Shown here one piece after another: positions 3,114 through 38,946 of a stretch of DNA of 38,994 nt. Source of the stretch: Deltaproteobacteria bacterium (GTDB lineage Bacteria > Bdellovibrionota > Bdellovibrionia > Bdellovibrionales > JAMPXM01); the NCBI GenBank assembly GCA_017302795.1, contig JAFLCB010000019.1:1-38994 (forward strand), read 5' to 3'. Position 1 is the stretch's first letter. Each line of letters opens with the position of its first letter. The notes beneath the pieces are model-generated. The model had not been told where the DNA came from. It did not search any database and saw only the letters and a list, made by a program, of their open reading frames with translations. The translations under genes and the position numbers were made by a program.

Positions 3114-5423
3114 ATGTCTCGATCAAAAGCGAAAGTTTCGCAACCTGAAGCACGTCATCGCAAAGACCAAACAATTGACTTCCTCAACTTTCTTACGCGT
3201 CGGTCAAAATCCGACAACGTAGACCAGTACTTGAGGACTGGCAAAGTCACGCAAATTCAGGACCTCTTTGATTGCGGCAAATACTTTCTTACGCATGCCA
3301 TGGGATGTGGAGAGAATGATTTTATCCCGAACATCAATTTTAAAGAATTCGCCTGCTTCGTACCCCAAAGCGAGAATTATTATCCGTGGGTGTTTTTTAC
3401 TGTTCCGACTACGACCTCCGATCTTGGGGAGTTCTTCGATCAGCACGGTCGCAATTACTTGATGTCAGCTGATGCTGGAAAAAAAGATTTCGCGATTGTG
3501 ACCAACTTAAAATCGATCTCAGTTTTTGATTTCAATCACTTTCAATCTGAGTTCGAAGTTTCGATTGAAGAACTTTTTGATGCATTAAAGTCCGGGGAAA
3601 ATTCAACGGCCAATAAAAATTGGGCGAATTTCCTTGGAACCTTTGGCACTGAAAAAGTTGAGGAACGAAAAAAGGTCCGAAGAAAAGAAGTCGTCAAGTA
3701 CGTTGAGCCAAAAGAGGCATCCCCAAATCTTCAGTATGTGAAGCGCTTCGGACACATGCCAAGTTTTGAAACGCCCGTTGGATACGACGGTAAGAACTTC
3801 CGCGAAACATTCAAAACCAAAGAGCTTCCGTTCCTCAAGACCGAGTCGATCGACTGGGATGGTGTTGTTAAGTCTTCTTCTTCTGGAAACCGACTAATTT
3901 GGGGCGACAACCTTTCGGTCATGCGCGCATTACCCGATGATTCGATCGACCTTATCTACGTCGACCCGCCATTCTTTTCAGGTCGGAACTACAATTGCAT
4001 TTTCGGGGATGACGACGAAGTTCGTACGTTTAAAGATATTTGGGACGGCGGGCTTCCGACCTATTTGGCATGGCTAAATGCTCGAATTTGGGAAATGAAA
4101 CGGATTCTTAAGCCGACAGGAAATTTAGTTCTTCATCTCGACAAGCATGCTTGCCATTACGTGAAGATCGAGCTCGACAAGATTTTCGGCGCGGACAATT
4201 TCCAAAATGAAATTATTTGGTCGTACCGTACGGGTGGTGCATCAAAACGTCGATTTGGCCAAAAGCACGACAATCTCTTTTGGTACTCAAAAAATACGGA
4301 CGAATACTACTACAACTGTATTAAAGAGCGCATCTACTATGAAAAGCCCTTCTTCAATCCCAAGGTCGACGAAGAGGGAAGATATTATGCAGACATACTT
4401 CCAGATGATACTTGGGATGTAAAAGCTGTGTTGAATATCAGCAAGGAGCGGATTGGCTATCCGACTCAAAAACCGGAGCAGCTTCTTTCAAAAATAATTA
4501 CGGCTCTTTCTAAGCCTGGCGATGTCGTCGCCGATTTCTTTTCGGGCGGAGGTACCACAATTGCGGTCGCCGAAAAACTGGGCCGCCGGTGGCTTGGTGT
4601 GGACATCTCGCGAATCGCGGTCTCAGTCGCACGCGACAGAGTGTCGAAACTTTACGATGTGGATGCCGGAATCCCACGGTTGTCGGATAAGCCGAAGACT
4701 GGATTTTCAGTCGAATATCACGGCGTATATGAAAGAGACCTCGTGCGCGAGATGGAGGAGTCCGAATATCGAAGTTTCATTCTCGGATGCTACCAGTCCT
4801 CGGAAAAATCTAAGGGGAGCTTTATTCATGGCTTTAAAGAAGATCGTGCAGTTTATGTGGCACCCGCAAAAAAGAATCTTCGTAAGGATCAGATTGAGGA
4901 ATTTCACTCCGAGCTTGCAGAATTAAAAATTAAAAATGGCGTAATTTTGGCGTGGAACGTATCTAAGGAAGCGGAAAAATACGTCGACGATTTACGTCGC
5001 GGCGCAAACGGTCCCGATATTCAAATTATCCAGGTTCGGCTTGTCGACATTGATAGCAATGAGTTCAAGGGAGACAACATCCGTTTCGTGAACAAACCCG
5101 CTGCGATCATCAAGTCCTCTCAAAAAAATGGGCTTACTTGGATTTTCGATGCAACCGCGTCGTGCGGTACGAATGGTTCCGAAATTCATTATTTCCAGTG
5201 GGACTTCGACTATAGAAGCCGATTCTCGCCGCACACCAAACCAAAATTTCAAGATGATGCTGATGGCGACGGGAATCCTTTGAACGACTATCGACGAATT
5301 GAATTCACGTTTCCGAATGAAGGAAAGTTCAAAATCGCATTGAGAATTTTCGATAAGTCGGGCGCAGAAGCTACCCACGTTGTGGAAGTAAATGTGGCTA
5401 AGACCTCTAAAAGGGCTAGCTAG
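3114..5423 (+). CDS. mod: Type III-like DNA adenine methyltransferase with Ig/PKD-like tail
   Basis: This is a beta-class amino-methyltransferase: catalytic motif IV DPPF at residues 284-287 precedes the SAM-binding motif FFSGGGTT at 475-482. 'GYPTQKPEQLL' lies just before the latter, as in Mod subunits of type III systems. The order implies N6-adenine (or N4-cytosine) methylation, with target recognition between the motifs. A separate domain occupies residues 1-180. About 95 C-terminal residues (672-766) form an immunoglobulin/PKD-like beta domain ('FQWDFDYRSRF', 'GKFKIALRIFDKSGAEATHV'); a similar tail occurs on other methyltransferases of this type. The helicase gene begins one base after its stop. 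The gap before it (2988-3113) may carry the promoter. Confidence 0.85.
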   Translation: MSRSKAKVSQPEARHRKDQTIDFLNFLTRRSKSDNVDQYLRTGKVTQIQDLFDCGKYFLTHAMGCGENDFIPNINFKEFACFVPQSENYYPWVFFTVPTTTSDLGEFFDQHGRNYLMSADAGKKDFAIVTNLKSISVFDFNHFQSEFEVSIEELFDALKSGENSTANKNWANFLGTFGTEKVEERKKVRRKEVVKYVEPKEASPNLQYVKRFGHMPSFETPVGYDGKNFRETFKTKELPFLKTESIDWDGVVKSSSSGNRLIWGDNLSVMRALPDDSIDLIYVDPPFFSGRNYNCIFGDDDEVRTFKDIWDGGLPTYLAWLNARIWEMKRILKPTGNLVLHLDKHACHYVKIELDKIFGADNFQNEIIWSYRTGGASKRRFGQKHDNLFWYSKNTDEYYYNCIKERIYYEKPFFNPKVDEEGRYYADILPDDTWDVKAVLNISKERIGYPTQKPEQLLSKIITALSKPGDVVADFFSGGGTTIAVAEKLGRRWLGVDISRIAVSVARDRVSKLYDVDAGIPRLSDKPKTGFSVEYHGVYERDLVREMEESEYRSFILGCYQSSEKSKGSFIHGFKEDRAVYVAPAKKNLRKDQIEEFHSELAELKIKNGVILAWNVSKEAEKYVDDLRRGANGPDIQIIQVRLVDIDSNEFKGDNIRFVNKPAAIIKSSQKNGLTWIFDATASCGTNGSEIHYFQWDFDYRSRFSPHTKPKFQDDADGDGNPLNDYRRIEFTFPNEGKFKIALRIFDKSGAEATHVVEVNVAKTSKRAS

Positions 5424-5424
5424 C

Positions 5425-7509
5425 ATGTCAGAGTTTTTAAACTCTAAGCGTTGGGAGGCTATACATGGGGAAAAATACGAAAAGTGGCGGACTTCGCGTT
5501 GGATCGATTCAAGCAGAGAGACTCAGATTTTTCTAGATCACGTTCTTCCTCTTGGACGGATTGACGGCGAAAAACGGTTGCTACCTCACCAGGCTGAGAC
5601 TCTTCAGCGTGTGATTTATAGCCACGAAATTCTTGCTCTTGATCCGATTCTGGCTACCCTTGCAACGGGTACTGGTAAGACCCTCGTGATGGCCTCGGTG
5701 ATGGCGTGGCTTGCTTGCATTAAGAAGATTCAGACATTCATAGTGTTTTGTCCAAACACCATTGTTCGAGACCGGTTAAAGCGAGACTTTGAAGCGGGAA
5801 GCGTGTTTGACGAGTTCAATCTCTTCCCACCGCAGTTCACTGAGCTTCGAAAGGCGCTGCGCCCGTCGATTGTTGACGGCTATAAAGGTTTGACGAATTT
5901 GCTGGGCTTTAACCTTCTCGTTGCGAATCGCCATCAGTTTCAACAGGGATATTCGGGTGGTCAGGATCACTTAAAGTTCGTTCTCGATGAGGGCGGCACT
6001 CTAGGAATTTTTAACGACGAAGCCCACAACACTCGTGGACCGGAGTATAAGCGAACGCTCGACTTACTGAAGTCGAAGTCACCGTTTCGATTTGATGTTA
6101 CCGCTACACCGGATCGTGCAGACAATCTGCGTCCGGAATCGCATGAGATATACAGTCTGTCGGTTGTCGAAGCCATTACCGGAAGCTACAAAAATAATCG
6201 ACACATCGAAAAAGGTTACGCGAAGTATCCTCGATTGATCAAAGACGTCTTGGTACAGCGACCAGACATCAAGAAATATGGGGCAATCAGTCAAGCGGAA
6301 CTAACATTCAGAGATGAAGGTTCAGGTCAGGTATTACGACTACGAGAGATCGACTGGGATGATCTGCCCCGTAAGAAGAATCTGAAGCTCGTTATGGACC
6401 CCGGTCCGATGAAAATGCAGCTTCACCTGGCGGTCGAAGCGATTGAAAAAAAACGGATCGTTGCAAACGGACGTTACAAACCGCTTCTCTTTGTCATTAC
6501 TCCGAGCATCGCTGGAGCGAAACAAGCGGTCGACATGATGAAGCGAGAGTTCAAACTCAATCCGCTCCTCGTTGTGGATGACGAAACGGAGTACGAGAAG
6601 AAAGAATTGCGCGAAGCGGCGGCATCGCTTGGTAGCGTCGATTCACCGTTCGACAGTGTCGTATCGGTCTACATGCTGCGCGAAGGATGGGACGTTCCGG
6701 AGGTCTCGGTAATTTGTTTGCTTAGAGGATTTGGATCACCGTTGTTTGCGAATCAGGTGCTAGGTCGCGGCCTCCGCCTAATTCGAAGAAGTGGATGCGA
6801 ATCGGACCGTGATGTCCAAGAGCTAACGATCATCGATCACCAGACCTTGGGTCTCGATTACCTCTGGGAGGAAATCGACGCTATGATCAAGGAAGGCGAT
6901 CAAGTAACACGCGAACGTGAAATCCCTAGAGACGAAAATGGAAATGTCGAAATTTCCGAAGGTGGCGATAAGATCGTCCGCGAACAGATTGTCGTTCGGC
7001 AAGATCTCTACCATCTGTTACTTCCAATTCCAGATCCGAAAGTGATTGAGGGGATTTCATTCGAGAGAGCGTTGGAGCTGCTCGATCAGGCGATGGGCTG
7101 CATCACTGACTATAAACCGGACAATTTGATTTTTGTCGAGGTCGAAATTGAAGGAATACGGCGTTTTCGTCCGCAACGTCCTGAAGAAAAAACGGCTAGG
7201 GGCCTCCGTTTAAGCGCCATTCCCGAGATCGGAAAAACCCAGGAACTTTTCGATCAAACCAAACAAATGATCATGGAGTGGGCGCAAGACTTATCTCAAC
7301 GATACGATCCGTTTGCGACGAAGACGAACTATCTCTATTCAATCATTTTAGATCACGTTGAAGAAGGTCTTGGCGGAAAGGTCCCGCTTCCGGAGATGGA
7401 GCCGAACATTCTCTATGCGATCTCGCTGAGTATTCCGCAGATCCGCGAAAGCGTAGCCTATGAACTGAATCAGCGAATCTATTCAGAGGAGCTTCTCTAC
7501 AATGGCTGA
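5425..7509 (+). CDS. res: Type III-like restriction helicase subunit
   Basis: A superfamily 2 DEAD/DEAH helicase: Walker A ATGTGKT at residues 80-86, DEAH at 198-201, TATP at 226-229, and a late 'QVLGRGLRL' motif VI. It would use ATP to move on DNA between methyltransferase and nuclease. ATG at 5425 is preferred over one 33 bases upstream because it follows the methyltransferase stop directly. The 694-residue length is short for a Res subunit, because the usual C-terminal nuclease domain is not fused. That domain is encoded by the next gene, which overlaps this one by 8 bases. Confidence 0.85.
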   Translation: MSEFLNSKRWEAIHGEKYEKWRTSRWIDSSRETQIFLDHVLPLGRIDGEKRLLPHQAETLQRVIYSHEILALDPILATLATGTGKTLVMASVMAWLACIKKIQTFIVFCPNTIVRDRLKRDFEAGSVFDEFNLFPPQFTELRKALRPSIVDGYKGLTNLLGFNLLVANRHQFQQGYSGGQDHLKFVLDEGGTLGIFNDEAHNTRGPEYKRTLDLLKSKSPFRFDVTATPDRADNLRPESHEIYSLSVVEAITGSYKNNRHIEKGYAKYPRLIKDVLVQRPDIKKYGAISQAELTFRDEGSGQVLRLREIDWDDLPRKKNLKLVMDPGPMKMQLHLAVEAIEKKRIVANGRYKPLLFVITPSIAGAKQAVDMMKREFKLNPLLVVDDETEYEKKELREAAASLGSVDSPFDSVVSVYMLREGWDVPEVSVICLLRGFGSPLFANQVLGRGLRLIRRSGCESDRDVQELTIIDHQTLGLDYLWEEIDAMIKEGDQVTREREIPRDENGNVEISEGGDKIVREQIVVRQDLYHLLLPIPDPKVIEGISFERALELLDQAMGCITDYKPDNLIFVEVEIEGIRRFRPQRPEEKTARGLRLSAIPEIGKTQELFDQTKQMIMEWAQDLSQRYDPFATKTNYLYSIILDHVEEGLGGKVPLPEMEPNILYAISLSIPQIRESVAYELNQRIYSEELLYNG

Positions 7510-7843
7510 AAAAATATTTTATGAAGGTAAAAAGAGTCCGTTCAATTTCGAGATTTGCCATTCCAAAGACGAAAAAAAATTCGCTGAGAACTTGGACGCC
7601 GATGACAAAGTCGCTGCGTGGACGAAAGCCCACAATATAGTGATCCGCTATCGAAACAAAAAAGGTGTGATCGCCAGATACTATCCAGATTTTTTGGTGC
7701 GATGGAAAAATGAAAATGAGATGGAGCTTATCGAAATCAAAGGCGCACATTTGAACAACGATCCGAACGTCGAACTCAAACGGAAGGCTGCCGAAGACTG
7801 GTGTTTCCAACGCGGCATGAAGTACAAAAAAATCGTCGTATAG
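7502..7843 (+). CDS. Stand-alone PD-(D/E)XK nuclease of the restriction system
   Basis: A 113-residue protein. It carries P62-D63 ('YYPDFLV') followed by E78-I79-K80 ('ELIEIKGA'), the PD-(D/E)XK nuclease motif. The 'YYPDFLVRW...EIKG' segment resembles the C-terminal nuclease domain of type III Res proteins. It overlaps the helicase by 8 bases and would be made together with it. I infer a split Res: helicase and nuclease in separate chains that assemble with Mod. It ends 9 bases before the convergent minus-strand gene, with no clear terminator between. Confidence 0.8.
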   Translation: MAEKIFYEGKKSPFNFEICHSKDEKKFAENLDADDKVAAWTKAHNIVIRYRNKKGVIARYYPDFLVRWKNENEMELIEIKGAHLNNDPNVELKRKAAEDWCFQRGMKYKKIVV

Positions 7844-26566: not shown

Positions 26567-26889
26567 TGAGTGAAGATTCGCTGCTCACAACCATCGTTCC
26601 GAGAACGTTGGAGACGAAAAACAAAATTCTAGGACTCGAGCTCTCTGACGTACTCTTGCTGTTGCTTAATATTTCGGTCGAAAACCTGATCTTTGGTTCG
26701 ACGCCGCTAAAAATTCCGATGGTCTTTGGGTCGACTCTCCTTTTTGCGGCGGTGCTTTTTCTATTTAAGCGCGGAAAGCCTGACGGCTACGTTCAGCACT
26801 ATGCCGAATATTTGATGTCACCGACGGTCTTCGCCGCGAATGCGGTCGATGAAAAGTATCGTCGATTTTCTGAACGGGCGGGCGTATGA
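26566..26889 (+). CDS. virB3: VirB3/TrbD-like inner-membrane protein
   Basis: A 107-residue protein with two hydrophobic segments around residues 27-43 and 48-65 ('VLLLLLNISVENLIF', 'VFGSTLLFAAVLFLF'). It overlaps virB2 by one base and virB4 by 4 bases. VirB3 assembles with VirB4 in the T4SS inner membrane. Assignment comes from topology and order. Confidence 0.75.
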   Translation: MSEDSLLTTIVPRTLETKNKILGLELSDVLLLLLNISVENLIFGSTPLKIPMVFGSTLLFAAVLFLFKRGKPDGYVQHYAEYLMSPTVFAANAVDEKYRRFSERAGV

Positions 26890-29351
26890 ACACGGACGGT
26901 GTTTTGTGCGAGAGCCTTCCATACTGGGAATTTCGAACAACGCCGATCCCGCACGTCATCTTATCAGACGGGTCGGTCAGCTCGGGCTTCGAGATTTCAC
27001 CGCTAGATATTGAGTGCTTTGATGAGTCGAGAATCAATCAGCTGACCCATGGCCTTCGAGCATTTTCGAACTCTCTTCCAGAGGGGATGACTTGCCAATT
27101 CATGGTGAAGGTCGAGTCCGACGTCGAAGACCTGCTTCGAAGACACGTTGAGCTTGTGACGACCAACAATAGCGCACTTGAATCTCTAGATCACGAGCGC
27201 TCGTCACTCGTTTTAGATGACGTTAAGCGCGGCGAACTCTTTCGTCCTCGGCTGATGTTTTTTATGAAAACTGAAGGCTCGCTTCGGCCGGGCATCTTTG
27301 CGATTTCGGGAACAAAGAAATTCTCTGAGAAATTCGAATCCGGTTTTGAAGATCGGCTACAGAGTCTTGCGCAAGCTCTGGACGGCGCCCGATCGTCGAT
27401 CGCTTCTCTCGGGTTTGCGACAGAAACTTTGTCGCCTTCGGATCTGATTGAAATTCTATACCGGTATCTCAATCCTCGTCGAAGCGAGGATGTGTCGGCG
27501 CCAAACGTGGCATCTCGCGACACTGATATAGATTTGACCTCGCCGAGGTCACAGATTGTTTTTGGCGACCTCATTTTAGATCGGGAAGATTTCATCCTCG
27601 ACGGGCTGCGGACGAGAGTCGTGACGCTCAAAACTTTGCCGGAAGTTACGTTCGCGGGAATGATGAGTGGCTTTCTAGCGTTTCCTTTTAAATACGAGCT
27701 CTTCTTTTCGTTCAAAGTTCCGGATCAATCGAAAGAAGTTAAGAGTCTCGAACAGAAGCGTCGAATGGCGCACTCGCTATCAGTGTCTTCGTCAAACCGG
27801 GTGACGGATTTAGAGAGTGAGTCGCGACTCTCGCAAACAACAGATTTACTTCGCGAGCTGATCGAAACCGGTCAAAAAATCTTCCGGTCCGAACTTGTTG
27901 TGATTCTGCGCGATGACGCCGGCCTGGACGGATTGAAACGATTGAATCTTCGCACCAAAGAAGTTCTGTCGAAGTTTAAAACGTTGAGCGGTTCGGAAGG
28001 CATTCAGGAAGCGGTGGGTGCATGGAAGATTTTTAAGTCGAATCTCCCATTGGCGCCGATGAGTCTCGTTCGCGGCAAGCGAATGAAGACAAATAACGTG
28101 GTCGATCTCTTTCCCTTGTATGGGGCGGCGACGGGAGACGAGACGCCAGTTTGCCTGTTGAAAACAAGACTCGGGTCTCTGTATTCGCTGAATCCGTACT
28201 CTGCCCGGCTGAACAATTTCAATATGCTCGTCACCGGATCGAGTGGATCAGGAAAAAGTTTTGCGAATAACTTTCTGATGCTTCAGCAGATCGCGCGAGG
28301 AACGAAGGTCTTCATCGTCGATGTCGGCGGATCGTACCGAAAAATGACCGAAGTCTTGGATGGTCAATATTTCGACGTGAACCTCACGGGCAAATACTCG
28401 ATTAACCCTTTCGACATGAGTGATCCTAGCTCCGTTCCTAGCGGTGAACGGCTCAAGTCACTCGTTAGCATCGTCGAGCAAATGGTGGTCGATGACGGCG
28501 AGAAACTTTCGCGTTTTGATCGAGTTTCTCTGGAGCGGGCGCTTGCGACCGTTTTCGAGAACGCGCGTACGCGTTTCGAAGCTGTCTCGCCGACGCTATC
28601 TGATCTGGCGAATTATTGCCTTCAATACGGTGATGAGTCGCTACAGAGAATCGGAAAGCTTCTTTATCCGTGGACGGGAGATACGCCGTACGGTCGGCTA
28701 TTGGACCGACCAGGTCAAATTGAGGCCGACAAGTCGATCGTGACATTCGATCTAAAAGGATTGTCGCAATATCCCGATCTTCAGTCGGTCATGATCTTGA
28801 TTCTGACGGGATTCATTCTTGAACAAGTCGAGACGGATCGAACAGTTTCAAAGCGCGTTTTGCTCGACGAAGCCTGGGAACTTCTGAAAAGTCCGGCCGC
28901 GAGCCAATTCATGGAGTACGCGGTTAGGACTTTCCGAAAAACCGGTAGCGGTGTCACGTTCATCACTCAGGGTGTCGAAGAAATCATCGCAAGTGGTCTA
29001 GGGTCTGCGATTCTCAATAACACCGCGATGAAGCTTGTGATGCTTCAACGCGGTAGCACGGATGTACTTCGCGATGCGCTAAAGCTCAATTCTCAAGAGC
29101 TTCGTCTGATTCAAAGCCTCGAACAGCGAAAAGGAGTTTTCAGCGAAGGTTTTTTGATGGCGGGTGAAACTCGCCAAGTCATTCGGATTCAGCCGACGCC
29201 CCGTCAGTATTGGATTTCAACGTCGGACCCGCGCGACGACCAATTCTTACGAAAACTTCAAGACGATGGTCATTCGCTTGAGTCTGCGATTTCGGAGGCG
29301 GCATCGGTCGCACCGTTCGGCGTTTCGTCGCTCAAAGGAGTCGCCGTATGA
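26886..29351 (+). CDS. virB4: VirB4 ATPase of the T4SS
   Basis: An 821-residue ATPase. The Walker A motif 'TGSSGSGKS' is near residue 450, 'LLDEAWELL' (Walker B) near 660, and 'SGVTFITQGVEEI' follows as in the TraC/VirB4 family. It powers pilus assembly and substrate transfer. It overlaps virB3 and the next gene by 4 bases each. No separate VirB11 is present, so this may be the only assembly ATPase beside VirD4. Confidence 0.95.
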   Translation: MNTDGVLCESLPYWEFRTTPIPHVILSDGSVSSGFEISPLDIECFDESRINQLTHGLRAFSNSLPEGMTCQFMVKVESDVEDLLRRHVELVTTNNSALESLDHERSSLVLDDVKRGELFRPRLMFFMKTEGSLRPGIFAISGTKKFSEKFESGFEDRLQSLAQALDGARSSIASLGFATETLSPSDLIEILYRYLNPRRSEDVSAPNVASRDTDIDLTSPRSQIVFGDLILDREDFILDGLRTRVVTLKTLPEVTFAGMMSGFLAFPFKYELFFSFKVPDQSKEVKSLEQKRRMAHSLSVSSSNRVTDLESESRLSQTTDLLRELIETGQKIFRSELVVILRDDAGLDGLKRLNLRTKEVLSKFKTLSGSEGIQEAVGAWKIFKSNLPLAPMSLVRGKRMKTNNVVDLFPLYGAATGDETPVCLLKTRLGSLYSLNPYSARLNNFNMLVTGSSGSGKSFANNFLMLQQIARGTKVFIVDVGGSYRKMTEVLDGQYFDVNLTGKYSINPFDMSDPSSVPSGERLKSLVSIVEQMVVDDGEKLSRFDRVSLERALATVFENARTRFEAVSPTLSDLANYCLQYGDESLQRIGKLLYPWTGDTPYGRLLDRPGQIEADKSIVTFDLKGLSQYPDLQSVMILILTGFILEQVETDRTVSKRVLLDEAWELLKSPAASQFMEYAVRTFRKTGSGVTFITQGVEEIIASGLGSAILNNTAMKLVMLQRGSTDVLRDALKLNSQELRLIQSLEQRKGVFSEGFLMAGETRQVIRIQPTPRQYWISTSDPRDDQFLRKLQDDGHSLESAISEAASVAPFGVSSLKGVAV

Positions 29352-30049
29352 AAAGAAAAATTCTGAGTTTCTTTTTTGTTCTGACGTTTGTCGCAAAGCC
29401 GACCGCCGTGCGAGCCGATATTTTCGGCGGTGACGTTTTTGTGCTTACTCAAATTTTGGCGCAGGCAGTTCAAACCGTCATTCAGCTAAGAACGATCCTA
29501 ACGCAGGGGAAAGACACATTGGATTTGCTTCGCGACGTGAACGCCGGGGTAAAGAGCGGCCTCGATCTTATTCGGATCATCAATCCAAACTTCAATCCGG
29601 GCGTCTACGGAGATTTACGTGACTCAGATGCAGTGCTTCGGGCGCTTCAACAAGTTTACGGCGCTGCACCAAAGGGAATGGACGAAGAGTTGATACGGTC
29701 GCAAGACCAGAGTGTCGCCGAAGTCATTTCGATGAATCGAAATCTCTACGACTATGCCGATCATGTCGACCGAGAACGGGATCGAATTCTATTTCACGCT
29801 GAGGTCGTAAGCCCTCAGGGTGCCGGTAAACTTCAAAATCAGGCGCTTGGTATTCTGATTGGTGTCACGACTCAACTGCTCAGGACGCAAAGTCAGATGC
29901 TTAAGATCATGGGTCAAAACATGGCGTACGACAATCGTAAGGAAAAGATCGCAACGCGAAATTTCCAGGAAAACTACCAGGGGCTTTCGAAAGGATTCGA
30001 GGGCTTGCCTAATGAGACGAAGCTGCCACGCCTTGGGGGTGAGAAGTGA
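29348..30049 (+). CDS. VirB5/TrbJ-like periplasmic protein
   Basis: A 233-residue exported protein: signal peptide MKRKILSFFFVLTFVAKPTAVRA, then 'DIFGGDVFVLTQILAQAVQTVIQL', a helical start typical of TrbJ/VirB5. The rest is mostly helical ('NQALGILIGVTTQLLRTQSQMLKIM'). It overlaps virB4 by 4 bases and virB6 by 4. VirB5-type proteins sit at the pilus tip. TrbJ is the closest family by appearance. Confidence 0.7.
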   Translation: MKRKILSFFFVLTFVAKPTAVRADIFGGDVFVLTQILAQAVQTVIQLRTILTQGKDTLDLLRDVNAGVKSGLDLIRIINPNFNPGVYGDLRDSDAVLRALQQVYGAAPKGMDEELIRSQDQSVAEVISMNRNLYDYADHVDRERDRILFHAEVVSPQGAGKLQNQALGILIGVTTQLLRTQSQMLKIMGQNMAYDNRKEKIATRNFQENYQGLSKGFEGLPNETKLPRLGGEK

Positions 30050-30924
30050 TTCCCAACCTCGAAGTCTTGGGTTCGCTTGTTCGCGATCTTCACCAGAGTT
30101 TAAGCCAGCTGTTTTATATTATGCTGCCGGTAGCGATTTTGTTTTCGGTCGTTTTTGGATTTTTGAAGTCGGGTGACGCGAATTATCCAGACGTGATTAA
30201 GCGTTCGTTTGTCGCGGCGTTGCTGCTCGCCTCATTTCCCGAGGTTTCAAACGTGATCCTCGATATTTGTGATGGTATCGCGGGGAAAATCGACAACATG
30301 TCGGGCCTCGACACGTTCATGCGAATGGCGCAGGAAAAGTCACTCAGCTATGCCACATCGACGACTTCGCTGCTATTGAAGTTTGACGATCTATTCATGG
30401 CTGTTCTGAGCTTTGGAAGTTTTGTGCTTCTTTACGTCGCTCGCTACGTCACAATCGCTCTTTACTATTTCTACTGGGTTCTTCTGTCGGTCTGCGCGCC
30501 ACTCATGATTCTTTGCTACATCTTCCCAAGAACGGCTGGAATTACGGCAAACCTCTATCGGGCACTTATCGAAGTCGCCTGCTGGAAAATTTTGTGGGCC
30601 GTGATGTCTGCGATGCTGACGTCGCTCACATTCGGAAGCCTCTATCGGACGGAAGGCGGGTATCTGACGCTCATCGTGATGAATTTTATCATCGCGCTCG
30701 CACTCCTATGTACGCCAATGCTGATGCGGTCGCTGATTGGCGAAGGGGTTCAAGCGACGGCGCACAAAATTGGCGGTACGGCCGCGATGGCAGCCGTGAT
30801 GTTCCCCGCGAAAACAGCCGTCGTACATCAGATGTCGAGAGAGTTTCTCTCGACGACGCGCGGTTATGCCGCACACAAGTTTCAGTCGTTTACAAACAAA
30901 GTTTCACGGCCCAAAGGGCCGTAG
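30046..30924 (+). CDS. virB6: VirB6-like polytopic membrane protein
   Basis: GTG start overlapping the previous stop. A 292-residue protein with five or six hydrophobic segments (about 24-40, 52-66, 122-158, 160-172, 185-205, 215-240). The 'IILDICDGIAGK' loop and 'YYFYWVLLSVCAPLMILCYIF' region match the shape of VirB6/TrbL. It forms part of the inner-membrane channel. A GC-rich hairpin lies across its stop. Confidence 0.75.
   Translation: MIPNLEVLGSLVRDLHQSLSQLFYIMLPVAILFSVVFGFLKSGDANYPDVIKRSFVAALLLASFPEVSNVILDICDGIAGKIDNMSGLDTFMRMAQEKSLSYATSTTSLLLKFDDLFMAVLSFGSFVLLYVARYVTIALYYFYWVLLSVCAPLMILCYIFPRTAGITANLYRALIEVACWKILWAVMSAMLTSLTFGSLYRTEGGYLTLIVMNFIIALALLCTPMLMRSLIGEGVQATAHKIGGTAAMAAVMFPAKTAVVHQMSREFLSTTRGYAAHKFQSFTNKVSRPKGP
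30906..30922 (+). other. Intercistronic hairpin at the virB6 end
   Basis: ACGGCCC-AAA-GGGCCGT is a perfect 7-base-pair stem ending just before the virB6 stop codon. It is followed by AGTGGAGGTG, not a T-run, so it is unlikely to be a terminator. It could act as an RNA processing or stability element, or shape access to the virB8 ribosome site GGAGGTG. Confidence 0.4.
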
Positions 30925-30938
30925 TGGAGGTGAATTCA

Positions 30939-31529
30939 ATGATTAAAAAAACAGTTCTTCGATCTAGCTCTTATCCCGAAGCAATGCGCTCGTTCGCCGA
31001 GGAGAATCTCAATCTCAAGTTTCTTTGCGCGAGCCTGCTCGGATTATTTTTCGTAACTCTTTTGCTCGTTCTATATCTCGTGAAAAAAGGCCCGACGGTT
31101 GTGGCGCTCGACAACACAGGTGAAGTCTCGCGGATTGAGGCGAAGGTCACAGACCTACAGATTCAAGCGGCGATAAAAGAATACGTCTCTCGTCGATATT
31201 CGTGGAACGAAAAAAGCATTTCGAGCCAACTTTTGAAAGCGAAGTTCTTTGTATTGCCGATGCTTGTCCCGGCTTTCGAACGTTCAATGGCGGACGTGCA
31301 AAAATTTGTTCACGACAAAAAAGTCAGTCAGCGCGTTTATCCGAAATCGGTCGAGGTTGATCTTAAGGAGAAGAAAGTTTCGGTGATCGCGGACCGAATT
31401 ACCGAGTTCGACAATCTCAAGGCGGCGACAGAGATGCGGCTCGTTTTACAGTTCGCGCTTGACGATCGAACGGTCACCAATCCTTGGGGCATCTATATCT
31501 CTAAAGAATCTGCAGAGGCGAGACCATGA
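30939..31529 (+). CDS. virB8: VirB8/TraE-like protein
   Basis: Start at 30939 with TGGAGGTG upstream. A 196-residue bitopic protein with one N-terminal membrane helix (about 27-49) and a periplasmic domain. The 'QIQAAIKEYVSRRYSWNE', 'QRVYPKSVEVDLKEKKVSVIA' and 'ATEMRLVLQFALDD' segments match the TraE/VirB8 shape. It bridges inner-membrane and core complexes. It overlaps virB9 by 4 bases. Confidence 0.75.
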   Translation: MIKKTVLRSSSYPEAMRSFAEENLNLKFLCASLLGLFFVTLLLVLYLVKKGPTVVALDNTGEVSRIEAKVTDLQIQAAIKEYVSRRYSWNEKSISSQLLKAKFFVLPMLVPAFERSMADVQKFVHDKKVSQRVYPKSVEVDLKEKKVSVIADRITEFDNLKAATEMRLVLQFALDDRTVTNPWGIYISKESAEARP

Positions 31530-32233
31530 AATGGCTTGCGGCTGCACTTCTAACGGTGATTCTGATGTCTTCTCCGGTGAATGCGCACGTTCGTAATATT
31601 ACGGCGAACGGGGATAATATTCTCAACGTCCGAACGGCGCTTGGGATCGCAACGATTATTCAGCTACCTGAAACGATTCAATCGGCCATCATAGGCGATG
31701 GTTCAGGTTTTAAGGTGGAGTATCTTGATCGGGCGGTGACCATCAAGCCGCTTCGGTTTGGCGTAAAGACGAATCTGTATCTCGTTACCGAAAAACGACG
31801 ATACAATTTGCGGCTTGTGACGCAGGCGCAGGATCTCGCGGACTACGTCGTTTATGTGCGAAATCCCGATATTAAGGACGCGGTCAGGTGGCGCAAGTTC
31901 AATCAATTCGGTGAAGCCGACAATATACGTCTGACGGTAAATCGAATCGCCGTGTCCGACGGTGGATTCGTCCTCATCGACGCGAAGATTTCTAGCAACT
32001 CGAACGAGACGAAGGCGCTGAAGCCCGAGGATTTTTGGATCGTTCAGGGAAACACATCGCGGACGGTTAACGGCCTTTTCGTTTCGGGTCTCGGAGTTTC
32101 AAAATCGAATCCAATTTCTGTTGGAATATCTCTGGCGAAATCTGAATTAGTTGCGACCAAACCGATCGTGATTGAACTGCGTATGAAACATAAAATTTCT
32201 GTTTCGATTTCAGAGGCGAACCTATGGAATTGA
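31526..32233 (+). CDS. virB9: VirB9/TrbG-like core protein
   Basis: A 235-residue exported protein: signal peptide MKWLAAALLTVILMSSPVNA. The body has 'ATIIQLPETIQSAIIGDGS', 'TIKPLRFGVKTNLYLVT' and 'RYNLRLVTQ', the N-terminal fold of VirB9/TraK. It lies in the periplasmic/outer-membrane core with VirB10. The C-terminal part is short for VirB9. It overlaps virB10 by 10 bases. Confidence 0.8.
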   Translation: MKWLAAALLTVILMSSPVNAHVRNITANGDNILNVRTALGIATIIQLPETIQSAIIGDGSGFKVEYLDRAVTIKPLRFGVKTNLYLVTEKRRYNLRLVTQAQDLADYVVYVRNPDIKDAVRWRKFNQFGEADNIRLTVNRIAVSDGGFVLIDAKISSNSNETKALKPEDFWIVQGNTSRTVNGLFVSGLGVSKSNPISVGISLAKSELVATKPIVIELRMKHKISVSISEANLWN

Positions 32234-33192
32234 AAACCTCAATCTCGAAGATGGCGAGCAAGATTGGTCAGCTTGCAACGAGTGGGAGAAATATTTTCGT
32301 CAGCGAAAATCGGTTCAGTCGAAAATTCGACGTGAATTTCAAGTCATTCAGAATCATGGGTCTTATCGGGTTGTTCATTTTTATCGGTGTCGTTTTTCTG
32401 CTTCCGAATGACGTACCTGTTCAGTTCACCGAAAAAAACAACCGAGACGCGAAGTCAGGGTCGGACGGCAGTTCGTCGGAGAATGGTGGTAGCAGCCAAA
32501 ACCGAGAGTCGGCGAGATCGTTGTGGTCTTCGCCGTCGATGGCGATCCCTCGCGGCGGTGGAAGCCAGGTTAACTACAATACTTCGATGGTTCTAGGGTC
32601 AAAGACCGGTAATGCCAAAACTCAGCTTCGCGCGGGAGCGCGGCTTTCCCTTCGGATTCTCGATAAAATCACGGTGTCGCAGGATTCGGTCCCAGTCTTA
32701 GCTGAACTTCTGTTGGACACCGAAACTGATTCTGGGTTGAGGCTTCCGGCGGGTTCACGACTCTACGGAGACGCGAGTTTTCAGCGCGGGTCCGACCGAG
32801 CGACGGTGCGATTTACTCAACTCTCGGTACCAAGTGGCCAGATTCGAAGAATTTCAGCGCTAGCGATCGGCAAGGATGGTCAACCGGGCGTCGAGGGGCA
32901 CGTGTTCTCGGACGGGATAAAAAACACGACAGGCCAGATACTGACAACGTTTGTTGGCGGACTTGCGGCTGGCAGTATGCAGACCGACATCTTTGGAAAA
33001 TCAAATGGCGGAGTGACGAATGGACTTCTCGCGGCGGTCTCGACGACAGCTCAGGGGCGAGCGCAGGCGTACGGAGAAAAATTAAAAACAGAACGCGAAT
33101 GGATCGAGTTAAAGCCGGGCACCGAGTGCGACGCGGTTTTAACCGATTCCGTTCGTCTTCAAGAAGGGGGTGATGACAATGAAAGACAGTAA
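32224..33192 (+). CDS. virB10: VirB10/TraB-like core protein
   Basis: A 322-residue protein with a membrane segment at about 40-58 ('RIMGLIGLFIFIGVVFLLP'), a low-complexity Ser/Gly/Asn linker (70-105), and the C-terminal VirB10 domain ('LDKITVSQDSVPVLAELL', 'LPAGSRLYGDASF', 'GVEGHVFSDGIKN'). VirB10 spans inner and outer membranes. The C-terminal 'EREWIELKPGTECDAVL' fits. It overlaps the virD4 start by 14 bases. Confidence 0.85.
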   Translation: MELKTSISKMASKIGQLATSGRNIFVSENRFSRKFDVNFKSFRIMGLIGLFIFIGVVFLLPNDVPVQFTEKNNRDAKSGSDGSSSENGGSSQNRESARSLWSSPSMAIPRGGGSQVNYNTSMVLGSKTGNAKTQLRAGARLSLRILDKITVSQDSVPVLAELLLDTETDSGLRLPAGSRLYGDASFQRGSDRATVRFTQLSVPSGQIRRISALAIGKDGQPGVEGHVFSDGIKNTTGQILTTFVGGLAAGSMQTDIFGKSNGGVTNGLLAAVSTTAQGRAQAYGEKLKTEREWIELKPGTECDAVLTDSVRLQEGGDDNERQ

Positions 33193-34834
33193 AGGTCCTG
33201 AGATGACCGACAGAGGGTTTCTATTTCTGACAATCGGCGCGGCGATTTTGGTTGGATGGCTCAAATTTAAGCCGCAGATTGTCGGCTTCTACGTGAAGTG
33301 GCGCTATCTCGTCGCGCTCGTCATCACGATCGCGATCATGGCCGCTTATCGATTGGCGAGAAATAGATTTAAAGCCAAGCATCGGTCGAAAAATTTAGAA
33401 AAAGAGATTCTGTCAGCAAGCGACACGGAAGACTCGGTCTACGCGGGTATCACGGCAGATGGAAAATCTGTATACATCAAGCAGTCCTTTCGACGCATGC
33501 ACACACAAGTCGTCGGCACAACGAATGCCGGCAAAACGGAATCGGTCATCATCCCTTGGGCGGTGGATGACATTAAAAAAGGTCGAGGCTTCTTGATGAT
33601 CGACGGGAAGGCGGATTCGGATTTGCTCAATAAGCTCTATGCTTACGCAAAAAAATACCATCGTGAACACGACGTCCGAATTTTGTCTCTGTGCAATGTC
33701 GACATCAGTCATACGTTTAACCCGTTGGCTGGCGGATCGCCGCTCGAAGTCGCGGAGCGCGTTTTTGCGGCCATGAACTTCGACAACGAGTATTTTAAGA
33801 GCATCCAGTACGACGCGTTTTTGCATTGTCTGCTGTTGCTCGCAGACGTGAAGATTAAAGCGACTCCTTACCGCGTCATCGAATGCCTAAAGCACGAGAA
33901 GCATCTGGCGGACTTAGCGAAGAGATCAACCGACGAGCGGCTGCAAAATTGGGTGAAAGACTTTTTAGGCCTCAAGCGAGAAGAGCGAGAGCAACGAACG
34001 AGCGGACTCGTGTCGCAGCTGCAAAGCTTTGCCGTCGGTGAAACGGCGACGATCTTTAACAGCGAAAACTCGGACATTGATTTGGAGCGCGCTCTCGAAA
34101 ACGGCGAGATCGTCTATTGCCAGCTTCCGGCCCTCAAAATTCCGACGCTTGGAAAAGCGACAGGTAAGGTTATTCTCCAATGCCTTCAGAGTGCCGTGGC
34201 TTCGCGTCACATCGGAGACTCAAAGAACCGAAAGTTCTTTTCGGTGTACCTCGATGATTTCACGGAGTACCTGACGCCGAGCTTTGTGACCCTGCTAAAT
34301 AAATCTCGAAGTGCGAACGTCGGAATCGTTTTTGCCCATCAGGCGCTCGGAGATTTGGCTGAGCATGGAGACGGGGTCAAAAATACGATCCTGACAAACT
34401 CGAACTTGAAGGTTTTCATGCGGACGAACGAGCCTGAGTCGGCCGAGTATTTTTCATCAGTGATTGGAACTTCACTAACCGCGAAAGTGACTGAGCGTCA
34501 AAAAGACGGGGTCTTTGGTCATGAGAAAACCGGCGACGGGTCGGTACGGGAAGCCGAGGAGTTCAAATTCCACCCGAACCTTTTTAAGCAAGAGCTTGGC
34601 GTCGGCGAAGCGATTGTCGTTCTCCCACATGCGCAAGGATCTCTGCCCGTTCGAATGAAATTCAAAATGTCATTCGATCTTGATAAGCCGATGATTCCGA
34701 AACTGTTGAAACCGGCTCCGCTTGGCATGCCAAAAAGTGATGAAAGCAAACCGTCGAATCAGCCGCAGCCCGAAGGAGCGCCTGCGGATGTGATGACGGA
34801 ATTGATTTCCGGTCAGACGGGGGTGGCGGCATGA
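33179..34834 (+). CDS. virD4: VirD4/TraD-type coupling protein
   Basis: Start chosen at 33179 because an AAGAAGGGGG ribosome site ends 8 bases upstream; ATG at 33173 is also possible. Two membrane segments lie near residues 10-25 and 37-52. Walker A 'GTTNAGKTES' is near residue 113, and 'FFSVYLDDFTEYL' plus 'VGIVFAHQALGDL' follow, as in the TraM-recognition/TraD ATPases. It hands the relaxase-DNA complex to the T4SS. The C-terminal tail is Pro/Gln-rich. Confidence 0.9.
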   Translation: MKDSKGPEMTDRGFLFLTIGAAILVGWLKFKPQIVGFYVKWRYLVALVITIAIMAAYRLARNRFKAKHRSKNLEKEILSASDTEDSVYAGITADGKSVYIKQSFRRMHTQVVGTTNAGKTESVIIPWAVDDIKKGRGFLMIDGKADSDLLNKLYAYAKKYHREHDVRILSLCNVDISHTFNPLAGGSPLEVAERVFAAMNFDNEYFKSIQYDAFLHCLLLLADVKIKATPYRVIECLKHEKHLADLAKRSTDERLQNWVKDFLGLKREEREQRTSGLVSQLQSFAVGETATIFNSENSDIDLERALENGEIVYCQLPALKIPTLGKATGKVILQCLQSAVASRHIGDSKNRKFFSVYLDDFTEYLTPSFVTLLNKSRSANVGIVFAHQALGDLAEHGDGVKNTILTNSNLKVFMRTNEPESAEYFSSVIGTSLTAKVTERQKDGVFGHEKTGDGSVREAEEFKFHPNLFKQELGVGEAIVVLPHAQGSLPVRMKFKMSFDLDKPMIPKLLKPAPLGMPKSDESKPSNQPQPEGAPADVMTELISGQTGVAA

Positions 34835-35124
34835 GACAGCTCACGGTTTTTCTAACGCCGATTTTTCTCGTTGGCTGTGTATCGACCCCAAAGTGTGGGA
34901 ATCCGGAAGGAGCGCGAACGATTTTGACCGGAAAAGAAAGCTGCCAGGTCCGAATTCGACAAGTCACGGTAGGTTCCGATTTGAAGATTCCGGCGAGTCT
35001 TAAGGGCGCGGCGCTCTCAGAATTTGCACTCGATTGGGTTGAGCCGACGTTGCAAGACGGTCGGATTGAGCTCGGACATTTTGTTTTGGTGCCGATGTCG
35101 CAATCGAAGGCGTCGGTAAAATGA
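34831..35124 (+). CDS. Small lipoprotein after virD4
   Basis: A 97-residue protein with a lipobox: MRQLTVFLTPIFLVGC, cysteine 16. It is probably in the outer membrane. It overlaps the virD4 gene by 4 bases and the next gene by 4. Position and size would fit a VirB7-like lipoprotein, but the order is unusual for virB7 and sequence support is weak. Its mature part has two further cysteines (C22 and C38), which could form a disulfide. Confidence 0.6.
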   Translation: MRQLTVFLTPIFLVGCVSTPKCGNPEGARTILTGKESCQVRIRQVTVGSDLKIPASLKGAALSEFALDWVEPTLQDGRIELGHFVLVPMSQSKASVK

Positions 35125-35936
35125 GGAGCATGAATCGACATGTGATTCAAAATGCTCAGGAGTTCGCGGCTCGTTGGGGATTCCTGACTCGCGACTTATT
35201 CTACGATTTTCTGTGCGGAATGAGCCCAACTCAGAACTACCGATATTGGAATTATCTGGTCGACGAGGGGTTGTTCGTGCAATCGCTCGCGTCGGAGGAT
35301 GTTTTGCTTTTGAGTGGGAAGAGTCGCCGATCCAATTTCGGTAAGTCGGCAAGGCCGTCACGGTTGCCGGTATATGTCGAACACGACGCCGTCGTCGCTC
35401 GGTTTTTATTGACGCTCGACCGCCTAGGTCTGATCGCAAGGTTTTGGCTCGAAGATGAGCTAACCCGCAGACCAGTCGAGGCGTATCAAATTTTAGGCGC
35501 GGAGAGAATGCATCGAATTCCAGATTTGATTTTCGATCTGAAAGCGGCGAACGGCTTCGTTCGCTGTGCGTTCGAAGTCGAAAAGACAACGAAGTCGCAA
35601 AGCCGGTATGACAAGATCGCGCTCGCCTATCTCGCCTATTCGAAAGTGAACGTGATTCTTTTTGGATGCGGAGGCCGCGCAACTGAGGCGGCCGTTCGGC
35701 GGTCGTTTGAGGGCAGACTCTATGTGGAGAGAAAACGTGTGCCAGGTATTTTTCAATACCCGGATTTCGCAAATGATGGTCTTCGGGCGGCAATTCGATT
35801 CGGATCAATGGAGTACACGGTTGAAAAAGTTCTTGAGATCGCGACGAAGCAATCGCTTCCGGCCCAAGCTTCTAAGCGGATTCTAAATGAAAAATCCATT
35901 TCATTTAGAATCCCGACAGACGGTGAGGCTGCATGA
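35121..35936 (+). CDS. Candidate relaxase: PD-(D/E)XK, MobC/replication-relaxation-like
   Basis: A 271-residue protein. The N-terminus has a helix-turn-helix-like region ('FLTRDLFYDFLCGMSPTQNY'). The C-terminal half has P134-D135 ('RIPDLIFDL'), E152-V-E154-K155 ('AFEVEKTTKSQSRYDKIAL'), which fits a PD-(D/E)XK fold as in the replication-relaxation/MobC group. Some members of that group are MOBC relaxases, which lack the usual HUH motif. It follows virD4 directly, and no HUH relaxase is visible in the window. Large inverted repeats lie at its end and just downstream. Relaxase function is therefore inferred. Confidence 0.6.
   Translation: MRSMNRHVIQNAQEFAARWGFLTRDLFYDFLCGMSPTQNYRYWNYLVDEGLFVQSLASEDVLLLSGKSRRSNFGKSARPSRLPVYVEHDAVVARFLLTLDRLGLIARFWLEDELTRRPVEAYQILGAERMHRIPDLIFDLKAANGFVRCAFEVEKTTKSQSRYDKIALAYLAYSKVNVILFGCGGRATEAAVRRSFEGRLYVERKRVPGIFQYPDFANDGLRAAIRFGSMEYTVEKVLEIATKQSLPAQASKRILNEKSISFRIPTDGEAA
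35878..35913. repeat. 15-base-pair inverted repeat inside the candidate relaxase end
   Basis: GGATTCTAAATGAAA and TTTCATTTAGAATCC are perfect reverse complements with a 6-base spacer. They encode the last residues of the candidate relaxase. No T-run follows. A stem of this size inside a coding region is unusual and fits a protein-binding site of an oriT. Confidence 0.75.
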
Positions 35937-35969: not shown

Positions 35970-36068
35970 CCACCCAACCCCGCCCCCTTGAAACAAGTTT
36001 CTTCCTGTCCACCCCCACCCAACGAGTTGAGTGAAGGTGGACAGGAACCAGGGGGCGGGGTTGGGTGG
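35970..36068. repeat. Nested inverted repeats, candidate oriT
   Basis: The outer arms CCACCCAACCCCGCCCCCT (35970-35988) and AGGGGGCGGGGTTGGGTGG (36050-36068) pair perfectly over 19 bases. Inside, TTCCTGTCCACC (36002-36013) pairs with GGTGGACAGGAA (36036-36047), and CAAC-GA-GTTG sits at the centre (36020-36029). CCACCCAAC occurs twice directly and once inverted. No T-run follows, so a terminator is unlikely. It lies 33 bases after the candidate relaxase, as expected for oriT. The G-rich arm might also form a quadruplex. The rest of the 35937-36313 gap is A/T-rich with no gene. Confidence 0.6.
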
Positions 36069-36262
36069 AAGATGAGAAAGTCAGTTGGACATATTGATAG
36101 AGAGATAATTATTTTTTGAAGAGAAACAAGAGGGCACAGGACCAGAGGGATAGTCTGAACGAGATTTTTTGTGGAAGCGATCTTGTTTGATTTGTTGATT
36201 GTGCTTTTGTGCGGAGCTTTGGAATTGGACTATTCCCTTTGGCCCCGCGCCCTCAAGTAACT

Positions 36263-36313: not shown

Positions 36314-36727
36314 ATGGATATGGAAAAGGAAAGGCCGGATCAAAAGGTCGATCAAGAAAACATCATCAAGATTACCGTCACGAAGGAGGCCGGAGAAATA
36401 CTCGCCGATTTGGTGGTACGAGCAAACGAAGGGTTCGAGGGCGGTAAGATCAATCGTCAAAACCTTGCGAGCTACGTAATTGAGAAATTCAAAAACAATT
36501 TTTCGGATAAGGATCTCGCTCAGCTCAGACAGCTACATTACGATGACGCGGCCATGCTTGAGGCGATGTACCGAAAAATGAAAGAAACTGGGGATATTCC
36601 GGATTTCTTACGAGAAGCCCTGAAAAAGCAGTTCCATGGAATTGATGACTCATTGAAGCGAACAAAAAAGTCATTGACGAAAGAGTACATCAATGATGTA
36701 CAGTCTTCAGATGGGGAAACGACATGA
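36314..36727 (+). CDS. Helical accessory protein, possible RHH-like regulator
   Basis: A 137-residue protein whose start has GGGAGGTGC upstream. Its N-terminus ('NIIKITVTKEAGEILADLVV') reads like a beta-strand plus helix, and 'GGKINRQNLASYVIEKF' follows; this could be a ribbon-helix-helix or relaxosome accessory. The C-terminal half is charged and helical ('LKKQFHGIDDSLKRTKKSL'). It lies between the candidate oriT and the recombinase. The next gene overlaps it by 4 bases. Confidence 0.55.
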   Translation: MDMEKERPDQKVDQENIIKITVTKEAGEILADLVVRANEGFEGGKINRQNLASYVIEKFKNNFSDKDLAQLRQLHYDDAAMLEAMYRKMKETGDIPDFLREALKKQFHGIDDSLKRTKKSLTKEYINDVQSSDGETT

Positions 36728-36975: not shown

Positions 36976-37172
36976 CTCGCGGGCGTAAACGGAATCCCTT
37001 GTTCGCGGTTCGCAGCGATCTGCCCGTGACGTTGTATCCAACGAGTGAACCCGTATCGGACTTCTTGAAACGACACGATGAAGTGCAATCGATAATCGTC
37101 AAAATGATTTTGTTGAGCAAACGTAGAGGTCGCCCCTCAGAACAGGATCAAGACCATGAAGAAGCCGCTTAA
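36972..37172 (+). CDS. Small basic protein before the recombinase
   Basis: A 66-residue protein starting at an ATGA overlap with the Xre-like gene and overlapping the recombinase start by 17 bases. It is basic at the N-terminus (MTRGRKRNPL) with a short hydrophobic helix ('VQSIIVKMILL'). Family not recognised. It could be a recombination directionality factor or helper because of its position, but no motif shows it. Confidence 0.5.
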   Translation: MTRGRKRNPLFAVRSDLPVTLYPTSEPVSDFLKRHDEVQSIIVKMILLSKRRGRPSEQDQDHEEAA

Positions 37173-38904
37173 AATTGGTGCTTATGTTCGGGTTTCTACT
37201 GATCGCCAGGTTCAGGTATTTGAGGGATCGCTCGATACCCAAAAGTATCGCATGGCTGAGTTCGTAAAAGGTCGAAACAAGGACAATAAAAATTGGGGCG
37301 AGATCGTCGAATTCTATGTCGAGGAAGGTCTATCTGCGGGAACAGATAAGAGACCTCAGTATCAGCGGATCATGTCCGATGTTCGCGCAGGTAAAATAAA
37401 TCTGATTCTCGTCTCAGACATTTCGCGACTCTCAAGAAATACGCACGATTTCGGAGTTCTATTGAAAGAGCTTGAGCAGTGCAACGCGAGCTATCTGTCG
37501 ATGAAAGAGCAATTCGATACGACGACACCCGCCGGTCGGCTCATGATCAACATGGTCGTAAATATGGCGCAATTTGAACGAGAGATAACGTCAGAACGCG
37601 TATCCATCAATGTCTGTTCGCGTGCTCTACGTGGTTTCGTTAGCGGCGCGCCAGCTCCACTCGGACTGCATCGCGTGAAAGAGAAGCCTGGAGTTTTAGT
37701 AGTGAATGAGAAAGAGGCGAAAGACATTCGGACAATCTTCGATGTCTTTCGTGAACAGGGTAGCGTTGGTAAGACGATGCCGGTCATCGAGGCTCTCGGC
37801 ATACGTCCTCGTTCCAAGAAGTCGAAAGTCGACGGAATTGTTCCCGGCAAGTGGATTCATGATCAGCTGAGGGATATTCTCTCGAACCCGGCTTACGTGG
37901 GCATCAAAGAGGTTAACAAAAAGTACAAGCACTCGGATTCGGTGAATCTAAAACCTTGGCAAGGTTATCAGCAGGTCAAAGCGAGTTGGCCTGCCGTCGT
38001 GAAGCAGGAAGTCTTCGACGACGTTCAGAGAATGCTCAATGAGAACCTTCTGGTTGAAAGACGTCGCGTGGACGGTGCCGAAAGGCGAATATTTTTGTTA
38101 ACCGGCATTCTCCACTGCGGCGAATGCGGCCGACCGATGAGTGGTCAGTCCTCGCATGGTGCGAACCAGGTTCACCGATACTATTCACACACCGTAAAAC
38201 GTAACAGCGAAGTAAAGTGTTTAGTCAAACGCGTCCGCGCGGATGAGATCGAGCAGGTTGTTATCAATCATTTTACAGAAGTCTCGGGTCGGGCGGGTTA
38301 CTTCGATACGATCCAAAGTAAACTTAAAGAGGCGGTGAGCCACATCCCCGAGAAAATTTCGGAAGAAATCTCTGAGTTGAAAGAGGCGGCCGCTCAAATT
38401 GAGAAAGAGATATCGTCGACATTTAAATTACAGCTCCAGGTTTCGGGCGGAAGTGAAGCGGCGGCATTGACGGCCGAACACCTCGAAAAGTTGGGACGAG
38501 ACAAAAAGCTTGTGATGAATCGATTGGTCGAAGCTGAGGAACTCTTAAATGTTCAAAAGGATTCGGCTGGATTGAGGAATGTCATCGAGGGCCGAATTCG
38601 CGATTTCAAAAAGGCATTTCACAAAGCTTCGCCCGCGACGAAGCGGCGCCTCGTCAGACGGGTGCTGTGGAAATTGGTTTATCAACCGAATCGCCTCGAT
38701 ATTTATTTTAATTTTGCGGAAGGTCGGGAAGAGAAGGCGAACTCACCATTCGAGGCTCGCGAGCCGGGAAAGCTGATTCGATTTGAGCGAAAAATCGAGT
38801 CTGAGGAACGTTTTTCCAACTCCCAACCCGCTTTGAATCTGTCGTTCGAAAATTTGCGAGTTGACGGAATTGGATGGGGTGCCAGGACTCGAACCTGGGA
38901 ATGA
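37156..38904 (+). CDS. Large serine recombinase (integrase of the element)
   Basis: A 582-residue serine recombinase. The resolvase domain has S14 ('AYVRVSTDRQ') and 'SDISRLSRNT'; the recombinase domain follows from about 165, a zinc ribbon (CGECG near 318, later cysteine) and a coiled coil (about 390-480). The C-terminus (GWGARTRTWE) is encoded by the opposite strand of the tRNA-Gln gene, so its end probably changes between integrated and circular forms. It should catalyse integration and excision between att sites. Confidence 0.9.
   Translation: MKKPLKIGAYVRVSTDRQVQVFEGSLDTQKYRMAEFVKGRNKDNKNWGEIVEFYVEEGLSAGTDKRPQYQRIMSDVRAGKINLILVSDISRLSRNTHDFGVLLKELEQCNASYLSMKEQFDTTTPAGRLMINMVVNMAQFEREITSERVSINVCSRALRGFVSGAPAPLGLHRVKEKPGVLVVNEKEAKDIRTIFDVFREQGSVGKTMPVIEALGIRPRSKKSKVDGIVPGKWIHDQLRDILSNPAYVGIKEVNKKYKHSDSVNLKPWQGYQQVKASWPAVVKQEVFDDVQRMLNENLLVERRRVDGAERRIFLLTGILHCGECGRPMSGQSSHGANQVHRYYSHTVKRNSEVKCLVKRVRADEIEQVVINHFTEVSGRAGYFDTIQSKLKEAVSHIPEKISEEISELKEAAAQIEKEISSTFKLQLQVSGGSEAAALTAEHLEKLGRDKKLVMNRLVEAEELLNVQKDSAGLRNVIEGRIRDFKKAFHKASPATKRRLVRRVLWKLVYQPNRLDIYFNFAEGREEKANSPFEAREPGKLIRFERKIESEERFSNSQPALNLSFENLRVDGIGWGARTRTWE
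38871..38904. other. Candidate attachment site region at the tRNA 3' end
   Basis: The recombinase gene ends inside the tRNA 3' half, so the crossover point likely lies within or just beside 38871-38904. No copy of this segment was found near position 1, so the other att site is presumably outside the window. Confidence 0.4.
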
Positions 38905-38946
38905 CAGAATCAAAATCTGTTGTCTTGCCAACTTGACTACACCCCA
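38871..38946 (-). tRNA. tRNA-Gln (anticodon TTG)
   Basis: On the minus strand the acceptor stem TGGGGTG pairs with CACCCCA; the anticodon arm ACAGA-TTTTGAT-TCTGT shows anticodon TTG (Gln). The T arm contains GGTTCGAGTCC. CCA is encoded (38871-38873). The discriminator base reads T, where tRNA-Gln usually has G. The recombinase stop falls inside the gene. It is the probable integration site. Confidence 0.9.

Follow-up and report, generated by a model that had tools for sequence, protein, structure and literature searches.

During conjugation, a relaxase nicks the transfer origin (oriT), the strand passes through a T4SS, and the ends are rejoined. pAD1 is reportedly nicked within its large inverted repeat, and its TraX protein is said to bind direct repeats located 70 to 120 bp from the nic site. 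In pAM373, the same nested fold that we describe below lies between the coupling-protein gene and the gene of a TraX-type relaxase, and four further Enterococcus plasmids show the nested fold as well. CloDF13 (MobB-MobC) and a Citrobacter MOBC plasmid carry an outer stem CCGGCCCCCGTCAG/CTGACGGGGGCCGG (14 bp in CloDF13) that encloses the inner arms GACCACCC/GGGTGGTC; in CloDF13, these arms lie around the nic, which we take to be GGGTG/GTCGGG. For elements organized as oriT-mobB-mobC, the nic of ICEKp1 (subgroup C1) is GGTTG|GTCGCG, a G|GTC context (PMC7755788), and the nic of pMET1 and HPI_ECOR31 lies within an inverted repeat that offers two mirror sites (PMC2262945). The oriT of SGI1 resembles the locus studied here in being G/C-rich, with several inverted repeats and beside mobilisation genes (PMC6414798), but it differs in its tyrosine-recombinase-like relaxase, in the additional need for an sRNA, and in having short repeats.

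The locus analyzed here is a nested inverted repeat of 99 nt at positions 35970..36068 (+ strand) of the window, that is, the whole stretch of 38,994 nt under study, which comes from a Bdellovibrio-like bacterium. We are highly confident that this fold is the MOBC oriT of an integrative conjugative element and that the MOBC-type relaxase encoded next to it uses it as its substrate. A probable oriT had already been proposed here in an earlier note made from the sequence alone, and that reading is now backed by the position beside a relaxase and a T4SS, the recurrence of the fold in a family, its likeness to the pAM373-type and CloDF13 origins, and covariation of the type expected for DNA. The family-wide signature of the fold appears to be undescribed in the open-licence papers that our search covered.

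Architecture of the nested repeat

The outer stem is formed by two arms of 19 nt with 100% complementarity and a spacing of 61 nt, the 5' arm being C-rich (35970..35988) and the 3' arm G-rich (36050..36068). Inside it, TTCCTGTCCACC (36002..36013) and GGTGGACAGGAA (36036..36047) pair into an inner stem of 12 bp; the four-base centre is at 36023-36026, and a small top stem bears the loop CGAG. The outer stem, the inner stem, and the centre, all read on the + strand, are as the earlier note had described them. Missing from its list was a 4-bp mini-hairpin, GAAA-CAAG-TTTC, which occupies the 5' linker (35990..36001, + strand) and covaries across the family; the 3' linker between the inner and outer stems consists of two bases, CC. 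As single-stranded DNA, the 99 nt fold with -43.5 kcal/mol, compared with -19.0 +/- 2.7 in dinucleotide shuffles (z -8.94, with none of the 200 shuffles equally good), and the covariance model R1 built for the family matches them with 104 bits (E 3.9e-22). A search of the window against Rfam gave a tRNA as the only match, the fold having no family match above the gathering score, and the exact core sequence was not found in viral contigs.

The strong asymmetry between the G- and C-rich strands is real and a trait of the family, in which the 5' arm has a mean composition of 60% C and 11% G. A quadruplex on the G-rich arm, which had also been suggested, is not borne out, since the canonical 3-tetrad motif is absent from the window and only three of 42 relatives have one; in these we consider it incidental and not conserved. 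The threefold repeat of CCACCCAAC exists in number, but the copies are not all direct (35970 and 36015 on the + strand, 36060 inverted). We rejected these repeats as functional units, considering that they are two direct and one inverted and that the outer-arm copy is not kept in the family.

The pAM373/pAD1-type origins share with the window the large nested repeat beside a MOBC relaxase and the mini-hairpin in the 5' linker. The inner arms of pAM373-like origins are TTCCTGACCA/TGGTCAGGAA, with a 10-mer identical to that of many relatives of the window. These origins differ in their inner stem of ~24 bp with A/T-rich arms, in a 3' linker of ~13 nt, and in lying upstream of traX with direct repeats adjoining, whereas the fold in the window comes after the relaxase gene, and a search for repeats of at least 8 nt showed no direct-repeat array near it. 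CloDF13 has the nested repeat too, but with a longer, bulged inner stem, a branched top, and a location upstream of mobB. GACC/GGTC inner arms occur in the oriT regions of both the pAM373 type and CloDF13. In addition, the motif G[A/T]CC-N11-ACG (36007..36024, + strand; GTCC-N11-ACG in the window, GACC-N11-ACG in the pAM373 type) keeps a constant spacing from Bdellovibrionota to Enterococcus, and in the form G[A/T]C[C/T]-N11-ACG with a paired arm it was found in 35/42, 8/10, and 5/5 structures of three sets, with no occurrence on the opposite strand and with <1% of shuffles showing it. In CloDF13, an ACG-like motif is spaced by 14 and lies on the strand opposite to that implied by the mini-hairpin. 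R1 gave no full-length match to pAM373 or CloDF13, recovering only the inner stem of pAM373 (E 0.002); as there is no significant full-length alignment, the kinship of these DNA folds rests on shape and motif.

By comparison with these origins, the predicted nic is GGTG|GACAGG, between 36039 and 36040 on the + strand, within the 3' arm of the inner stem. Alternatively, the nic may be at the mirror position, which falls in the 5' arm of the inner stem on the - strand. The window has G|GAC where most relatives have G|GTC, and it carries GGTGGACAGG at the place where most close relatives have GGTGGTCAGG, which makes the assignment of the nic weaker for the window than for them. Since the mini-hairpin and the ACG-like motif of CloDF13 point to opposite strands, either strand may be the one that is nicked.

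The 271-aa relaxase and its element

The fold lies just after the relaxase gene, as the earlier note had it, starting 33 nt past the stop of a 271-aa protein (35121..35936, + strand). This protein had no match among Pfam families, and it matches NF041423 (MobC, NCBIfam) only weakly, scoring 17.5 bits where the cut-off is 200; judging by its sequence, it is related to the narrow NF041423 MobC subfamily yet lies outside it. Invariant in 38 homologues are H88 D89, P134 D135, E152-x-E154-x3-K158, and Y163. The residues of the catalytic motif align with those of the CloDF13-type MobC (hhalign 96.8%, E 2e-10) and of the pAM373 TraX-type relaxase (79%, E 1.6e-5). In the AlphaFold model (pLDDT 85), the part from residue 6 to residue 76 resembles winged helices of the MarR type (Z ~7, rmsd 1.8-2.4 over 64-67 residues), and the best matches of the remainder, a nuclease-like domain with a strand-strand-helix-strand core, include the PD-(D/E)XK nucleases FokI, EcoO109I, and VC1899, although the range of the Z values is also compatible with a merely common arrangement, so that the motif and the profile match weigh most in the assignment. 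The known relaxase family that combines a winged helix with PD-(D/E)XK is MOBC (PMC12857230). On its motif and profile, the 271-aa protein groups with the MOBC relaxases, and its nicking activity is predicted.

The window belongs to an integrative conjugative element. T4SS genes (TraC/VirB4-like, VirB8, CagX/VirB9, and TrbI/VirB10; 26886..33192, + strand) are followed by the type IV coupling protein (T4SS-DNA_transf / TraG-D_C; 33170..34834, + strand), a 97-aa protein, the relaxase, the fold, and a second long inverted repeat (36130..36254, + strand), beyond which come a 137-aa protein (36314..36727, + strand), a helix-turn-helix protein, and then the integrase, which is a large serine recombinase (37156..38904, + strand). 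Thus, the coupling protein and the T4SS genes lie upstream of the fold in the same mobile element. The genome of the window (G000) has four MOBC-type loci with the fold (C19, C23, C7:190541, and C6:78851); the matches on C7 and C6 are each close to a MobC-type gene, and a second element of this genome (L004) has an identical gene order. The 137-aa protein follows oriT in relatives and is a candidate accessory relaxosome protein; it had no match among Pfam families, and its structure prediction is of low confidence (pLDDT 43).

The second inverted repeat starts 61 nt beyond the oriT core and has arms of ~20 nt or more around a hypervariable interior of ~70 nt. It is found in only part of the family, roughly 50-67 nt past the core (also in L005-L007, L010-L012, L042, and L024-L027). 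If the nick were on the + strand, this repeat would fall in the leading region, hence a role as a single-stranded DNA promoter or priming site is conceivable.

Three other features of the window deserve mention. A perfect 15-bp hairpin (GGATTCTAAATGAAA; 35878-35913) lies inside the relaxase gene, at its 3' end. The end of the serine recombinase gene overlaps a tRNA-Gln on the opposite strand (38871-38946, - strand), and this overlap suggests the location of an att site. Consecutive genes for a DNA methylase, a ResIII helicase, and a TnsA/RE-type nuclease at 3114-7843 are likely restriction or defence cargo.

Recurrence of the fold and other explanations

We searched 141 genomes of the order, found relaxases of this kind in 33, and examined the DNA after each. 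Every located relaxase locus with enough contig left has the same fold after the gene, and the three loci without it (L023, L037, and L048) all end at a contig end. The fold mostly lies 24-96 nt past the relaxase stop (in L022 it overlaps the end of the gene) and is kept down to ~22% relaxase identity, with 42 distinct structures in the order-level set. In the phylum, divergent NF041423-type relaxases are present in 117/291 genomes, and the fold was found in at least 13 of 19 loci, either upstream or downstream of the relaxase. Comparison with related elements, which the earlier note had proposed as a check, therefore favors the oriT reading, as the same fold recurs beside relaxases of the same kind across the order and the phylum.

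The stems of the 42 structures contain 1138 G-C, 615 A-T, and only 7 G-U pairs. Changes in the stems are nearly always from one Watson-Crick pair to another. In an alignment of 18 sequences, both sides have changed in 26 of the 37 pairs, a value reached by none of 500 shuffles, and when the partners were slid, the paired share fell from 97% to at most 51%; the relatedness of the sequences is not fully removed in these controls. RNA helices normally tolerate G.U. Considering that the pairs change freely with almost no G.U, we read the pairing as selected at the DNA level, not in RNA.

This bears directly on the proposal that the repeat acts as RNA, either a structured leader or a small RNA, in regulating the operon downstream of it, which comprises the 137-aa protein, the helix-turn-helix protein, and the recombinase. 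The RNA form would be very stable (-71.8 kcal/mol, z -7.9), the fold is intergenic and on the coding strand, and in SGI1 an RNA near the oriT is of known importance (PMC9299015). However, besides the 7/1,760 proportion of G.U pairs, the fold has no match in Rfam, it accompanies the relaxase, upstream or downstream, instead of one particular downstream gene, and the same shape is found in known oriT regions, all of which makes regulation through RNA very improbable. A long G/C-rich stem between genes would also suit a bidirectional transcription terminator or insulator, but the sequence downstream of 36068 (AAGATGAG) and that of the other strand ahead of 35970 (TCCCGATC) confirm the earlier statement that no T-run follows the large stem on either strand. 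A terminator scan gave two terminator-like hits, small hairpins on the - strand, a number near the shuffle mean of 0.9 (sd 1.2), and a conserved loop sequence and spacing are unnecessary for termination; we regard this function as extremely unlikely.

The fold could instead serve the excised element as an origin of replication or as a single-strand origin, with the same relaxase as initiator, a function compatible with oriT. Some ICEs replicate in a plasmid-like form, and there are elements in which the fold occurs on its own. In the self-replicating plasmids pAM373 and CloDF13, however, it lies beside the relaxase or mobilisation genes, and we give a replication origin only a minimal chance.

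Proposed strand closure and loci without a relaxase

No covalent intermediate has been seen for the MOBC relaxase TraX, and a 2025 review lists the closure of MOBC-transferred DNA in the recipient as an open question (PMC12857230). The architecture of the fold suggests how this step might work. The nested repeat, probably in the form of an extruded cruciform or a single-stranded DNA fold, would be where the relaxosome assembles, and the PD-(D/E)XK relaxase would nick the conserved inner stem at 36039/36040, or at the mirror site on the other strand, after which the coupling protein and the T4SS would transport the strand. The outer arms and the inner 5' arm would hold the nicked ends together, and because the inner 5' arm would pair with both sides of the nick, the result would be an ordinary ligatable nick that requires no covalent link between relaxase and DNA. 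In folding calculations, the halves cut at 36039/36040 re-pair as the uncut fold with -40.6 kcal/mol, compared with -5.0 and -1.2 for each half alone. The position and strand of the nick, the extrusion, and the splint-and-ligate step are what we infer from these data, and a self-splinting fold would suit a relaxase that has no known covalent intermediate. An earlier paper on pAD1 reportedly already raised the possibility that the repeat helps to join the ends; our splint model would extend that idea, the comparative support being new. It is possible, although we hold it with some doubt, that MOBC origins are self-splinting as a class and that the same fold is the signature that integrative elements lacking a relaxase carry for their mobilisation. 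With dozens of natural variants that share one fold, a fixed spacing, and compensated stems, the closure question becomes directly testable.

Because the fold also recurs next to related enzymes of bacteria that are very distant, it can serve to find such elements. Used as a search model, it flags conjugative elements in a phylum of predators and hints at relaxase-less elements that may hitch on them; a search based on relaxase genes would overlook the latter. R1 finds the structure in 67/141 genomes of the order. Among the best 30 hits, one per genome, 21 have a relaxase within 1.5 kb and nine do not. Ten regions of 6-19 kb, around those nine hits and one other, showed no relaxase. In L119, L120, L121, L123, and L126, a large serine recombinase of full length lies beside or close to the fold. 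Apart from the oriT core, L119, L120, L121, and L123 share no DNA with the relaxase-bearing loci that were examined. In L122 and L124, on the other hand, the flanks are also common to relaxase-bearing loci, and both look, from their sequence, like reduced elements; in L125, the relaxase may be missing owing to the contig end. We consider L119, L120, L121, L123, L126, and L127, loci in which no MOBC relaxase was detected and most of which have the fold beside a large serine recombinase, candidate oriT-only integrative elements, which fits the description of such elements in other systems (PMC11389934). One of these loci, L121, has three oriT-like structures within ~6 kb of one contig (7700-13899).
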